A stretch of DNA of 64,000 bases from Candidatus Roizmanbacteria bacterium (GTDB lineage Bacteria > Patescibacteriota > Microgenomatia > UBA1406 > GWC2-37-13): contig JACRJL010000001.1 of NCBI GenBank assembly GCA_016215445.1, positions 1 to 64,000 on the forward strand, written 5' to 3'. The notes under the pieces are model-generated. The model saw only the letters and a program-made list of their open reading frames with translations, was not told the DNA's origin and did not search any database. The position numbers and the translations under genes were made by a program. Shown here one piece after another: positions 28,909-32,596 of this stretch (its first letter is position 1; every line of letters begins with the position of its first letter).

Positions 28909-28936
28909 TTGCATTGTTAATTTTTCGGTGTATAAT
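28909..28936 (+). promoter_or_regulatory. Promoter of leader ORF 1
   Basis: TTGCAT (28909-28914), a 16-nt spacer and TATAAT (28931-28936). The leader ATG follows at 28949, 12 nt after the -10 box. Confidence 0.6.
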
Positions 28937-28948
28937 TATTATTATCTT

Positions 28949-29020
28949 ATGAAAAATTTGAATCCCAATTTTTACTTTTATTTTACCCGCGAAGGCGGCG
29001 GAGAAGGTTGTGACTGTTAA
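28949..29020 (+). CDS. 23-residue aromatic leader peptide 1
   Basis: ATG to TAA, 24 codons. The peptide contains NFYFYFTREGGGEG and ends CDC: five Phe/Tyr codons in a row (28968-28982) just before a Gly-rich part. The ORF sits between its own promoter and a Rho-independent terminator. This is the layout of amino-acid attenuation leaders such as pheL. The aromatic codons are also the left arm of a 16-bp perfect hairpin. Alternative: a small functional or modified peptide. It is too short for homology to be judged by eye. Confidence 0.5.
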   Translation: MKNLNPNFYFYFTREGGGEGCDC

Positions 29021-29040: not shown

Positions 29041-29063
29041 CCCCGCCGAAAGGCGGGGTTTTT
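29041..29063 (+). terminator. Rho-independent terminator after leader ORF 1
   Basis: CCCCGCC (29041-29047), loop GAAA, GGCGGGG (29052-29058), then TTTTT. The stem is 7 GC-rich pairs with a GNRA-type loop. The same terminator occurs at 29465-29487. Confidence 0.9.
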
Positions 29064-29074
29064 AAGTTATATAT

Positions 29075-29356
29075 ATGGAAATTAGAACAGCAGTTGGAGC
29101 AAAAGCAGCAGAAAATTATCGAAAAATGAAGGACAAATTAACAGACCATCAAGTTCTTGTCCCGAAATTAAAATCAGTTCCGCACCACGGTGCTGGGGAA
29201 ATACCGGTGATAACTGGTTGGACTGTAAAAAATATTAGGAAGATGAACCTAAGCCAAATATCAATGGTTATGGAATATGCGTCGGCCCAGCTTGATGAAC
29301 CTAAAAGAGGGTTACTGACAGGTAGGGAAGAAAGGTTAAGAGGAATGAGAAATTAA
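29075..29356 (+). CDS. Small protein of unknown function behind the first attenuator
   Basis: The protein has 93 residues. It starts 12 nt after the terminator's T-run. I do not recognise the family. It is soluble, basic at the end (LTGREERLRGMRN), with an apparent helical C-terminal half (WTVKNIRKMNLSQISMVMEY). Its expression should depend on read-through of the terminator at 29041-29063 unless it has a hidden promoter. Eight nucleotides separate it from the second leader ORF. Confidence 0.6.
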   Translation: MEIRTAVGAKAAENYRKMKDKLTDHQVLVPKLKSVPHHGAGEIPVITGWTVKNIRKMNLSQISMVMEYASAQLDEPKRGLLTGREERLRGMRN

Positions 29357-29364
29357 AAAATAAC

Positions 29365-29448
29365 ATGAGAAACAAAAGATTTCTGATAAAACAGACGAGC
29401 TATTACTATCGAGAACTGCTTTACGGCGGGGTGCCGTTTCATGCCTGA
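29365..29448 (+). CDS. 27-residue tyrosine-rich leader peptide 2
   Basis: ATG to TGA, 28 codons. The peptide includes KQTSYYYRELLYGGVPFHA, with three consecutive Tyr codons (29401-29409) and a fourth at 29422-29424. It ends 16 nt before a terminator identical to the one after leader 1. A 9-nt segment inside the ORF is complementary to the terminator's 5' arm, so translation could control termination. Likely a regulatory leader of the 29511-31452 genes; an independent peptide function is possible. Confidence 0.5.
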   Translation: MRNKRFLIKQTSYYYRELLYGGVPFHA

Positions 29449-29472
29449 ATTTATACTTAACCGACCCCGCCG
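29424..29472 (+). promoter_or_regulatory. Antiterminator pairing of leader 2
   Basis: CGGCGGGGT (29424-29432, inside the leader ORF) is a perfect 9-nt complement of ACCCCGCCG (29464-29472, the 5' arm of the terminator). It can also form a local hairpin ACGGC/GCCGT. A ribosome stalled on the Tyr codons would leave this segment free; a ribosome at the stop codon would cover it. Confidence 0.6.
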
Positions 29473-29487
29473 AAAGGCGGGGTTTTT
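29465..29487 (+). terminator. Rho-independent terminator after leader ORF 2
   Basis: CCCCGCC (29465-29471), loop GAAA, GGCGGGG (29476-29482), then TTTTT. Identical in stem and loop to the terminator at 29041-29058. Confidence 0.9.
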
Positions 29488-29510: not shown

Positions 29511-30437
29511 ATGTCAGAAACTATAAAGATTACTGGTTTTAGTGATGGTCATCAATTTAGAAATGCGAATCGTTATATAGACACCCAAAAGCTTTTCCAG
29601 GAATTGGGTTTGACCAATGAGGTGGAAAATAGGACGCCAACCGTAGGGGTGAACGTTGCTCATTTGGCGAGAATGGATGCTGTCCAAGGGCTAAACAAAG
29701 ACATTAACGGACGTGATTTATCAGTAACAATTTTAGGCATATCGACGGCTGAAGGCCCGAGTGATTTTCAAAAATTATTGAAAGGATTGGGTGCAAGTCA
29801 TATCTCGACGACGGCGATAGATATAAGCGACGGAATTTTCTCCGAGATTGCGAAAACAGACTTGGATGAAGTAACCTGTCTTTTAAAAGACGCTAGAGAA
29901 ACGGGTTTACCGGGATCGAGTCAAGATTTCAATCTTCGCGATCATATCGCCAATTGTTGTCCTCCGGAGATTGATCGAGAAATTAACGCCGAGGCAGTAA
30001 AAATTCTCAAACCAGGAGGTATTTCCATTGTCAATATTACCAGTAGCGATCTATTATCTAATTCTCAAGGTAGGGAGGTAGTTGATTTTTTTCAACTAAG
30101 ATCAACTATAGGAGAAGAAATAATTCGTGCATTGCAGACTAATATATATGATCTAAAAGAATTAGCCGAAGCATTCCCAGAGGTTGATGTCGAATCGTTG
30201 CGAGGATTAATTTTGGAAATAGAACCCGGGGGGAGTTTTGTGGTTTTTGGAGAAGACGAACAGGGTCACGGCGAATGGTTCCGGTCCATAGATGACCATA
30301 AAAAACTCTGGAAAAAAGATAGGTTTGAAATTGTCGAAATTGCCACCCGAGAAGGTAAAGATAGTCACAGTCCGCCGCTTGAGTGTATGAGGCACAATGT
30401 TGTCCTCAAAAAAAAATTATCAGTTGATGAGAAATAA
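29511..30437 (+). CDS. SAM-dependent-methyltransferase-like protein
   Basis: The protein has 308 residues and is soluble. The middle resembles a class I methyltransferase: DLSVTILGISTAEGPSDF as a possible motif I region and INAEAVKILKPGGISIVNIT as the late strand motif. A Cys pair (NCCPP) lies between them. The glycine-rich motif I is not classical (ISTAEG), so the SAM site is uncertain. It starts 24 nt after the second terminator, and its stop is 1 nt before the PLP enzyme gene, so the two form an operon probably controlled by leader 2. Confidence 0.6.
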   Translation: MSETIKITGFSDGHQFRNANRYIDTQKLFQELGLTNEVENRTPTVGVNVAHLARMDAVQGLNKDINGRDLSVTILGISTAEGPSDFQKLLKGLGASHISTTAIDISDGIFSEIAKTDLDEVTCLLKDARETGLPGSSQDFNLRDHIANCCPPEIDREINAEAVKILKPGGISIVNITSSDLLSNSQGREVVDFFQLRSTIGEEIIRALQTNIYDLKELAEAFPEVDVESLRGLILEIEPGGSFVVFGEDEQGHGEWFRSIDDHKKLWKKDRFEIVEIATREGKDSHSPPLECMRHNVVLKKKLSVDEK

Positions 30438-30438
30438 T

Positions 30439-31452
30439 ATGAAAAAAAATAATCTAAAACCGATCAACGAGCCGATATTTCTATCAACCACTTCTGCCCA
30501 GAGTGAACCAAGTCAGTGGGGTTACAGCCGGGTCGATAATCCGACCCGGCTGGCGCTCGAAGGAAAGTTGGCAGAAATTGAAAAAGGCAAGTTTGCTTTG
30601 GCTTTTTCTTCAGGATCATCGGCAATAGCCTGTCTTTTTGCTCTTTTTAAAGGAGGCGATCATATTTTATGCCATCGGGAAATATATGAAGGGACTCATA
30701 GATTATTGGAAAAAATATTCAAAAGATTCAAAATAAAATTTGACTTAGTAGATTTTAATGACCCTGGAGAAGTTAAGAAAAGTATCAGGACCAATACAAA
30801 ACTAATCTTTTTCGAGAATATTACAAATCCGAATCTAGAAAAAATTAATATAAAGAAAATTAGGCGGTCTGTCCCAAAAAAAATTATTGTCGCTATTGAC
30901 AGTACCGTATGTACACCGGTTTTTGAAAACCCGTTAGAGTTGGGTGCCGATATTGTTGTTCACAGTCTGACAAAGTTTATTTCCGGCCACCATGATGTTC
31001 TTGCCGGGGCTGTCATGACGAATAAAATCGACCTATTTAATCAACTTAAGTTTATTCAACAAACCATGGGTTTAGTTTTAGATCCTTTCAGCTGCTATTT
31101 GATTAGTCGGGGTTTAAAAACTCTTGATTTGAGAATGGAAAAACATACGGCTAACGCCAAAAAAGTTGCTGAATTTCTGGAAAAGGAGCGGGAGGTTGAA
31201 AAAGTTATTTTTCCTGGAGTTTCCGGAGTTGTTTCTTTTCAATTGGATCGTAAAATTGATCCGATAGGTTTCTTAAAGAAGTTGAAGTTTATAAAAATCG
31301 CCCAGAGTTTTGGAGGAGCGGAATCGACCATTTTACATCCAGTTTCAATGATGAAGCTGGCCATTCCAGTTAATATTAACTTGTTCCGATTGTCAGTCGG
31401 TTTTGAAAATGTCGAAGATATTATCAATGATTTAACTCGAGCTTTAAAGTGA
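30439..31452 (+). CDS. PLP-dependent Cys/Met-metabolism enzyme (cystathionine gamma-synthase/lyase-like)
   Basis: The protein has 337 residues from the ATG at 30439, shorter than the usual 380-400. SRVDNPTRLALEGKLAEIE, LAFSSGSSAIACLFALFKGG and the PLP-lysine segment VVHSLTKFISGHHDVLAGAV are family hallmarks (Cys_Met_Meta_PP). The C-terminal substrate domain has SFGGAESTILHP. The exact reaction (lyase, synthase or sulfhydrylase) cannot be told. I chose 30439 because it follows the upstream stop by 1 nt; an earlier start at 30397 would overlap the upstream gene. Confidence 0.85.
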   Translation: MKKNNLKPINEPIFLSTTSAQSEPSQWGYSRVDNPTRLALEGKLAEIEKGKFALAFSSGSSAIACLFALFKGGDHILCHREIYEGTHRLLEKIFKRFKIKFDLVDFNDPGEVKKSIRTNTKLIFFENITNPNLEKINIKKIRRSVPKKIIVAIDSTVCTPVFENPLELGADIVVHSLTKFISGHHDVLAGAVMTNKIDLFNQLKFIQQTMGLVLDPFSCYLISRGLKTLDLRMEKHTANAKKVAEFLEKEREVEKVIFPGVSGVVSFQLDRKIDPIGFLKKLKFIKIAQSFGGAESTILHPVSMMKLAIPVNINLFRLSVGFENVEDIINDLTRALK

Positions 31453-31464
31453 ATTATAAATTTG

Positions 31465-31470
31465 TATAAT
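31465..31470 (+). promoter_or_regulatory. -10 box of tyrS
   Basis: TATAAT with 7 nt to the tyrS ATG; the -35 region is weak. tyrS therefore probably has its own leaderless transcript as well as possible read-through from upstream. Confidence 0.5.
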
Positions 31471-31477
31471 AAATCTT

Positions 31478-32596
31478 ATGAATATCGAAGATCGTTTGAA
31501 ACTTATAAAACAGGTTGGTGAGGAAATTATTCAAGAGGATGAGTTGAGGAAGTTGTTGGAAAGTGGTGAGGAATTGATTGCCTATGACGGATTTGAGCCG
31601 TCGGGGCAGATTCACATTGCCCAAGGAATATTGCGCGCCATTAACGTCAATAAGATGATTAAAGCGGGAGTAAAGTTTCGGATGTGGGTAGCTGATTGGC
31701 ATGCTATGGCTAACAATAAAATGGGAGGAGATTTGGAAAAAATAAAAATCGTCGGTAAATATTTTATTGAAGTTTGGCGGGCAAGTGGTATGGACCTATC
31801 AAAAGTTGAGTTTATGTGGGCGAGTGATATGGCAAAAAACCCAGACTATTGGAAGTTAGTTCTTCAGGTTGGAAAGTCCAATGCCTTAAAAAGATTCATC
31901 AGGACCGCCGAGATGATGGGTCGGGAAGAATCGCTTGATAAGTTGACTGGCGCTCATATTATTTATTCTTGTATGCAGGTGGCTGACATCTTTATGCTTA
32001 AGGCTAATATTACTCAGCTTGGAATGGATCAAAGAAAGGTTAACATGTTGGCCCGCGAAGTCGGTCCAATTCTTGGATTTTGGAAGCCGGTGGTAGTTTC
32101 CCACCACATGCTTATGGGTCTTTCTAAGGCCCCGGGTACAACTGAAGCGGTTGTACAGGGCTCGTCAGAAAGTGCTATTCAGCGAACAATTGAGAGAAAA
32201 ATGAGTAAGTCGATGCCTGATTCGGCGATTTTTATGACCGACACAAAAGAAGATATAAAAAGGAAAATAAATAAGGCTTATTGTTTAGAGGGGGATATTA
32301 AAGAAAATCCGATACTTGAATATTATAAATATATAATATTTGAATCCCTCGACAAGCTTGGGATAAACGAGTTGCGGGTTGAGAGACCGGAAAAATTCGG
32401 AGGCGATTTATCATTCAAAACATACGCCGAATTGGAAAAAATCTTTTCCGAAAAAAAGGTCCATCCGATGGATATAAAAGCCACTTTGTCCAAATTACTT
32501 GACCAGTTGATTGAGCCGGTCCGACGCCATTTCGAACAAGATCCTGAAGCCAAAAAACTCTTGGAGCAAGTGCGAAGCTTTCAGGTGACAAGATAG
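31478..32596 (+). CDS. tyrS: Tyrosyl-tRNA synthetase, archaeal/eukaryotic type
   Basis: The protein has 372 residues. FEPSGQIHIAQGI carries the class I HIGH-like motif and KMSKSMPDSAIFM the KMSKS motif. MWVADWHAMANNKMGGDLEKI and LGMDQRKVNMLAREVG match the archaeal/eukaryotic TyrRS branch rather than the usual bacterial one, and the bacterial C-terminal S4 domain is absent. It charges tRNA-Tyr. It lies about 2 kb behind the Tyr-rich leader ORF, which is suggestive but not proof of joint control. Confidence 0.92.
   Translation: MNIEDRLKLIKQVGEEIIQEDELRKLLESGEELIAYDGFEPSGQIHIAQGILRAINVNKMIKAGVKFRMWVADWHAMANNKMGGDLEKIKIVGKYFIEVWRASGMDLSKVEFMWASDMAKNPDYWKLVLQVGKSNALKRFIRTAEMMGREESLDKLTGAHIIYSCMQVADIFMLKANITQLGMDQRKVNMLAREVGPILGFWKPVVVSHHMLMGLSKAPGTTEAVVQGSSESAIQRTIERKMSKSMPDSAIFMTDTKEDIKRKINKAYCLEGDIKENPILEYYKYIIFESLDKLGINELRVERPEKFGGDLSFKTYAELEKIFSEKKVHPMDIKATLSKLLDQLIEPVRRHFEQDPEAKKLLEQVRSFQVTR

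Follow-up and report, generated by a model that had tools for sequence, protein, structure and literature searches.

Leader 2, a short open reading frame with a run of tyrosine codons in a Candidatus Roizmanbacteria genome, is very probably a ribosome-mediated attenuator of the trp type that senses charged tRNA-Tyr and acts as the second of two units in series. The host is a Microgenomates (CPR) bacterium with a small genome (940 kb). Positions below are those of the window, the whole 64-kb stretch of DNA that was analysed, and all features given by such positions lie on its forward strand. We describe the parts of the leader, their conservation in related genomes and the folding switch predicted for the nascent RNA, before turning to the upstream leader, to the genes behind the pair and to other ways of reading the locus.

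Results

The leader 2 antiterminator pairs with both arms of its terminator

The leader 2 ORF (29365-29448) encodes the peptide MRNKRFLIKQTSYYYRELLYGGVPFHA. Its control codons, TAT TAC TAT (Tyr13-15, 29401-29409), are followed by an antiterminator strand (29416-29432) that consists of an outer segment, CTGCTTT (29416-29422), and a core, CGGCGGGGT (29424-29432). Terminator 2 (29464-29487) is built from the arms CCCCGCC (29465-29471) and GGCGGGG (29476-29482), a GAAA loop and a U-run (29483-29487). The core complements ACCCCGCCG (29464-29472) exactly, and the outer segment pairs with AAGGCGG (29474-29480), so that both arms of the terminator are taken up by the antiterminator. A preliminary description of this DNA had reported the ORF, its TAT TAC TAT run and a perfect 9-nt antiterminator; we re-derived the coordinates and the exact complementarity, and found the antiterminator to be longer than those 9 nt, the outer CTGCTTT having been overlooked there. 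In most loci no clear Shine-Dalgarno site was seen for leader 2 on inspection by eye.

The 18 nt of terminator 2 (CCCCGCC-GAAA-GGCGGGG) recur at 29041-29058, 424 bp upstream and behind leader 1, just as the preliminary description had stated. Even with up to 3 mismatches this 18-mer occurs only these 2 times in the 64-kb window; in shuffled sequence the mean is 0.01. There are few strong canonical GC-rich terminators: a scripted scan covering both strands of the window and 20 genome stretches yielded 20 of them in 464 kb of the window's genome, 3 of which carry leader ORFs with antiterminators. When all 20 were ranked by antiterminator score, leader 2 came first (26), leader 1 second (18) and a leader at C3:65366 third (15); no shuffled upstream region reached 22 (0/60), and a score of 18 was reached by about one terminator's worth of them.

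Leader 2 is conserved as a peptide, together with its control codons

The preliminary description had proposed a search of other genomes, and this recovered the leader pair, always in the order leader 1 then leader 2, in 11 of the 72 genomes of the family, spread over 3 genera; at every one of the 11 loci a leader 1 with its own terminator lies upstream of leader 2. An exact DNA pattern of leader 2 was too narrow for this purpose (matches in 3 of 372 genomes of the class, and in 2 of 372 for a pattern of the type-3 leaders described below). The leader 2 peptides of the first two relatives, G004 and G003, are MENKNFWIRQTSYYYYELLYGGEPFIA and MKIRQFLIRITGHYYYQLLYGGVPFNA. A profile built from 3 leader 2 peptides gave 4 more loci in the 372 class genomes (E 3e-10 to 3e-6), and one built from 7 gave a further 4 among the family genomes (E 4e-14 to 4e-8); the 11-row profile then matched 7 of the 372 class genomes at E <= 0.001, all of them within the family. 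Of the weak profile matches, those at L104, L105, L108, L111, G392 and G349 were read individually and set aside, no leader with a terminator being found; the E values of the other weak matches to the three-peptide profile run from 0.0085 to 0.1. A looser pattern search returned 12 matches in 8 of the 72 genomes. Six are leaders (3 leader 1 and 3 type 3), the 2 in G022 resemble simple terminators, and L043, L044, L048 and L050 were left out of the classification; of these four, the one in G006 sits on the opposite strand at its tandem leaders.

All 11 leader 2 copies contain an aromatic run of at least 3 codons, with Tyr at column 14 in 11/11 and at column 15 in 10/11, which makes tyrosine the likely signal, as had been suggested from the window alone. 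Five of the 11 runs start with Phe, and G006 carries Trp codons; some loci read FYFY, FYYY or YYYW. Y14, L18, L19 and Y20 are invariant in all 11 copies while their codons vary (for example CTN to TTG at L19), position 9 is K or R in 11/11, and Q10 and S12 are each kept in 10/11, S12 being encoded by both AGY and TCG. Since these residues persist while their codons change, the leader 2 peptide itself is conserved, in part outside the paired RNA. For 10 of the 11 sequences (G400 was omitted as near-identical to G399), pN/pS over codons 2-20 is 0.35, a comparative value that points to a translated leader. By segment it is 0.51 for codons 2-7, 0.44 for codons 8-12, 0.14 for the run (codons 13-16) and 0.13 for the Q/E-L-L-Y segment (codons 17-20), and by this comparison of sequences the aromatic codons are under purifying selection.

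The preliminary description had named free drift of the Tyr codons and the antiterminator beside a preserved terminator as the pattern that would speak against it; instead, Tyr14 and Tyr15 are kept in 11 and 10 of the 11 loci and the antiterminator is retained. In G281 the terminator is altered (CCCTCC/GGAGGG) together with a matching antiterminator, GGAGGG, so that both strands and the other arm change in concert. When antiterminators and terminators were re-paired at random, pairings as stable as the real ones arose in 313/20000 trials for leader 2 and in 849/20000 for leader 1, which gives modest support for matched pairs in a test that ignores relatedness and is driven largely by G281.

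Leader 2 is predicted to switch at its aromatic run

In the model a ribosome was stepped along the leader codon by codon; the RNA was treated as free from the base 12 nt beyond the first A-site base, and this free part was folded to obtain the probability of the terminator stem. In all 11 leader 2 copies this probability is 0.00-0.36 when run codon 1 or 2 occupies the A site, and 0.88-1.00 once the stop codon is reached. In the window's own leader 2 it jumps from 0.09 to 1.00 between Tyr14 and Tyr15. After the ORF, terminator and antiterminator are mutually exclusive. If the ribosome edge is moved back by 3 nt, run codon 2 still gives at most 0.34 in 11/11; if it is moved forward by 3 nt, run codon 1 stays at or below 0.36 in 11/11 and run codon 2 shuts in most loci. 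Synonymous recodings of leader 2 with the real tail, drawn from the codon usage of nine genes of the window, matched the observed opening in 0/300 cases for the window, in 0-5/300 for nine other loci and in 22/300 for G155. Folded without a ribosome, leader 2 is predicted to be open in 8/11 loci, and the terminator is favoured in G017, G145 and G408, where it opens around the run.

Leader 1 lies behind a promoter-like element and is a less certain gate

A TATAAT hexamer at 28931-28936, the candidate -10 element of a promoter shared by both leaders, begins 18 nt before the ATG of leader 1, leaving a very short 5' end. The leader 1 ORF (28949-29020) encodes MKNLNPNFYFYFTREGGGEGCDC, and terminator 1 (29041-29063) consists of CCCCGCC-GAAA-GGCGGGG and a U-run. 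In all 11 loci the 45 nt before leader 1 contain a -10-like hexamer (TATAAT in 10, TAAAAT in 1), 12-18 nt from the ATG, and none was found in the 45 nt before the leader 2 ATG (0/11), so that a single transcript running through both leaders is the simplest reading.

The start codons of the two leaders are 105 to 416 nt apart in the 11 loci. The spacing is widest in the window's genome (G000) and in G004, both with a small protein gene between the leaders. In the window this gene (29075-29356) encodes a 93-aa protein to which no function was assigned and for which Pfam and NCBIfam gave no match; a relative at 41% identity lies between the leaders of G004, and none lies between those of G003.

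In leader 1 the run is YYY in both of the other genera; within the window's genus it reads FYFYF, FYFYFY, LYFYF or WYY. As a separate observation, the leader 1 peptides of the window's genus finish in C-D-C or D-C-C, and the codons of C-D-C change synonymously. In the folding model leader 1 behaves as a clear switch in 6/11 loci (G003, G004, G006, G017, G145 and G408), opening at run codon 1 or 2 and shut at the stop codon. For G155 the outcome is borderline, with a terminator probability of 0.55 at run codon 1 and 0.96 at run codon 2. In G399, G400, G281 and the window the terminator probability is at least 0.90 at both run codons, and because of this the window's leader 1 shows no clear folding switch; its recoding control is a weak pass (21/500 recodings as good, with an opening of almost nil). 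Without a ribosome, termination is favoured in 9/11 leader 1 copies. By this modelling, the leader 1 gate is less certain than that of leader 2.

The genes behind the leaders differ, and tyrS is nearly constant

The first gene predicted to be controlled in the window (29511-30437) encodes an SAM-methyltransferase-like protein with a weak match to Methyltransf_11, below the cut-off. Relatives at 62-71% identity lie behind the same leaders in G004, G003 and G155. Its predicted structure matches the folds of SAM methyltransferases, matches that mean little because the model is poor (mean pLDDT 55). The second predicted target (30439-31452) is a PLP enzyme of the Cys/Met-metabolism type, and tyrS, the tyrosine--tRNA ligase gene (31478-32596; NF006330), follows and may also be reached by read-through. 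The claim that leader 2 is a second attenuator, serving the methyltransferase-like and PLP-enzyme genes, gains support from its conservation and its predicted folding switch.

A comparison of downstream genes, proposed earlier as a check, showed that they differ from locus to locus, with tyrS present in 10/11; the G400 contig stops before a possible tyrS. Four loci (G000, G003, G004 and G155) carry the methyltransferase-like gene, the Cys/Met-type PLP enzyme and tyrS. Three others (G006, G399 and G400) have an enzyme of the tryptophanase/tyrosine phenol-lyase family. Of these proteins, those of G006 and G399 were compared with family models, and both clear the cut-off of the tryptophanase subfamily model NF009709. 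Neither reaches the cut-off of an equivalog model, but of the three equivalogs the one for tyrosine phenol-lyase gives a higher score than the two for tryptophanase; the best solved relatives of the G006 enzyme are tyrosine phenol-lyases. In G281, G145 and G408 one unnamed protein family sits between the leaders and tyrS (L113 7976-9040, L115 8148-9209, L131 1399-2523). Its G281 member is 56% and 48% identical to the other two, and the family had no Pfam or NCBIfam match and no relation to the methyltransferase by BLASTP. G017 alone has DAHP synthase, an aminotransferase and a prephenate dehydrogenase-dehydratase fusion behind its leaders. Genes of the amino acid encoded in the run are thus found downstream: tyrS in 10/11 loci, and in some also DAHP synthase, prephenate dehydrogenase or the tyrosine phenol-lyase family. 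We know of no link between tyrosine and either the methyltransferase or the unnamed family. PF02153 (prephenate dehydrogenase) is present in 7/20 genomes of the genus and absent from G000, G003 and G004, the three members of the genus that have the window's operon, which suggests, though it does not prove, that these three do not make tyrosine by that route.

The leaders may perhaps also control tyrS itself, a possibility that the preliminary description had raised. Its position behind the leaders in 10/11 loci speaks for control; against it, a separate TATAAT lies just 5' of tyrS (31465-31470 in the window), and this element is conserved about 13 nt before the tyrS start in the window and in the nine other operons with tyrS in view, so that control by the leaders may be largely confined to the genes that precede it.

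Discussion

Proposed mechanism

Transcription would start upstream of leader 1. When charged tRNA-Tyr is short, we infer, a ribosome would stall at the Tyr run of leader 2, leaving CUGCUUU and CGGCGGGGU free to pair with AAGGCGG and ACCCCGCCG in the two terminator arms; with the terminator blocked, RNA polymerase would continue into the tyrosine-related genes. When charged tRNA-Tyr is plentiful, the ribosome would move on and mask the antiterminator strand, and the terminator would form. Leader 1, with its Phe/Tyr or Tyr run, may be a similar upstream gate, in which case both gates would have to open for the genes beyond, and the small gene between the gates in G000 and G004 would need the first alone.

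A further idea, which we hold only tentatively and rather doubt, is that the conserved chain of K/R-Q-x-S, aromatic run and Q-L-L-Y in the leader 2 peptide sharpens stalling at the Tyr codons, the two leaders together making a steep, portable gate for tyrosine shortage in front of unrelated enzyme genes. If so, the unnamed family and the methyltransferase and PLP-enzyme pair could be unrecognised ways to obtain or spare tyrosine.

Alternative readings

The signal may be wider than tyrosine. The Phe-first leader 2 runs and the Trp codons of G006 suggest that the leaders may sense aromatic amino acids more generally (Phe and Tyr, and in G006 also Trp), with leaders 1 and 2 tuned to different mixtures, and the mixed runs of leader 1 in the window's genus point the same way; yet tyrS is the constant gene downstream (10/11) and Tyr the constant codon (column 14, 11/11), and we regard this wider sensing as a genuine possibility that is still the weaker bet. 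We consider it unlikely that the ribosome is halted or slowed by the nascent leader 2 peptide, somewhat as with TnaC, whether by the peptide alone or together with a lack of Tyr-tRNA. TnaC controls a tryptophanase-class gene in E. coli, and such a reading would account for the conserved residues before the run, outside the antiterminator (K/R9, Q10 and S12, the last with both AGY and TCG codons), and for the tryptophanase/tyrosine phenol-lyase family gene in three loci. But pN/pS is 0.44 before the run against 0.14 within it, tRNA sensing would be expected to use just such runs of 3-4 aromatic codons, the peptides of leader 1 have the run without this motif, and the targets include biosynthetic genes, which fits switching on in shortage.

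The shared 18-nt terminator of the window had been taken to suggest that the two units arose by duplication. Over the 11 loci, however, each leader 1 resembles other leader 1s and not the leader 2 beside it, so that the leaders fall into two distinct kinds, and the paired terminators differ at most other loci; an origin of leader 2 from leader 1 is therefore very improbable. It is barely conceivable that the terminators serve upstream genes in the ordinary way and that small ORFs happen to lie close by: canonical GC-rich terminators do exist elsewhere in the genome (the 20 in 464 kb), but here the ORFs are conserved under selection, all 11 loci keep the antiterminator aligned with the aromatic run, and a -10 element stands right before leader 1. 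Sensing of charged tRNA-Tyr by leader 2 is the reading that we favour.

Relation to known systems

Attenuators of the trp, his and phe type combine a short ORF rich in codons for the sensed amino acid, an antiterminator competing with an intrinsic terminator, and downstream genes of the same amino acid. The tandem leaders share all of these, and differ in having a Tyr run, two units in series, a leader 2 antiterminator that pairs with both terminator arms and a CPR host. They also depart from the textbook trp leader in that, when no ribosome is present, leader 2 is predicted to be open at most loci.

T-boxes (RF00230) sense tRNA by direct binding, and no leader has to be translated. Like them, the leaders would place a sensor of tRNA charging upstream of amino-acid genes, and the window has no RF00230 match at the gathering threshold. 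T-boxes below the Rfam cut-off occur in 12/20 genomes of the genus (L011 66-297, G016:C20:1625-1852, G017:C7:26612-26841 and L089 were noted), those of G006, G016 and G017 in the tyrS operon; in G006 and G017 this operon has the tandem leaders as well. Behind the G006 T-box lie an aminotransferase-like gene and a tRNA whose anticodon loop contains GTA, and the sole match in G000 (C3:437657) lies outside the window before an unrelated frame. A relative's tyrS locus also contains a TPP riboswitch match (L014 3859-3970).

Free Trp is the signal for TnaC, which works by way of Rho. The resemblance is that in three loci a tryptophanase-family gene is preceded by a leader peptide in which some residues are conserved; the codon runs and intrinsic terminators seen here set the leaders apart from it.

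In Salmonella mgtCBR (PMC3641672), two leader ORFs with tandem attenuators on one leader mRNA respond to ATP and proline; the arrangement is similar, whereas here both units bear Tyr or Tyr/Phe runs in place of two different signals. Two further studies report attenuators for trp, trpS and leuS with candidate leaders for ilvB in a comparison of Actinobacteria, and His-codon attenuators of histidine genes in Firmicutes. Among the matches listed in open-licence papers there was no report of leader-peptide attenuation in CPR/Patescibacteria, nor, judged partly by title, of a Tyr-codon attenuator.

The type of mechanism is known, and the pair of Tyr-run leaders in series in a CPR bacterium appears, from sequence comparison, to be a new variant. 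CPR/Patescibacteria have tiny genomes and few known regulators; if correct, our reading would extend trp-style attenuation to this group and add a rare example of two leader peptides in series that answer to the same signal. Since the leaders stay put at loci whose downstream genes vary, they could also help to mark out tyrosine-related genes of unknown function.

A third kind of leader

Type-3 leaders, whose peptides are rich in Phe, Leu and Ile (MSLNKPFFLLINLIAA, MKINNIYSRIIFLFTAYRRR and MKLNPNHFTFRILITAYRRR) and whose antiterminator is GGCGGAGG, were seen at C3:65366 (L039) and C3:335537 (L007) in G000 and at C10:22318 (L038) in G004. One of these, T3_G000a, fails the recoding control (405/500 recodings as good) because its antiterminator is placed after the stop codon. 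Each type-3 leader precedes a small orphan protein, of 67, 115 and 82 aa.
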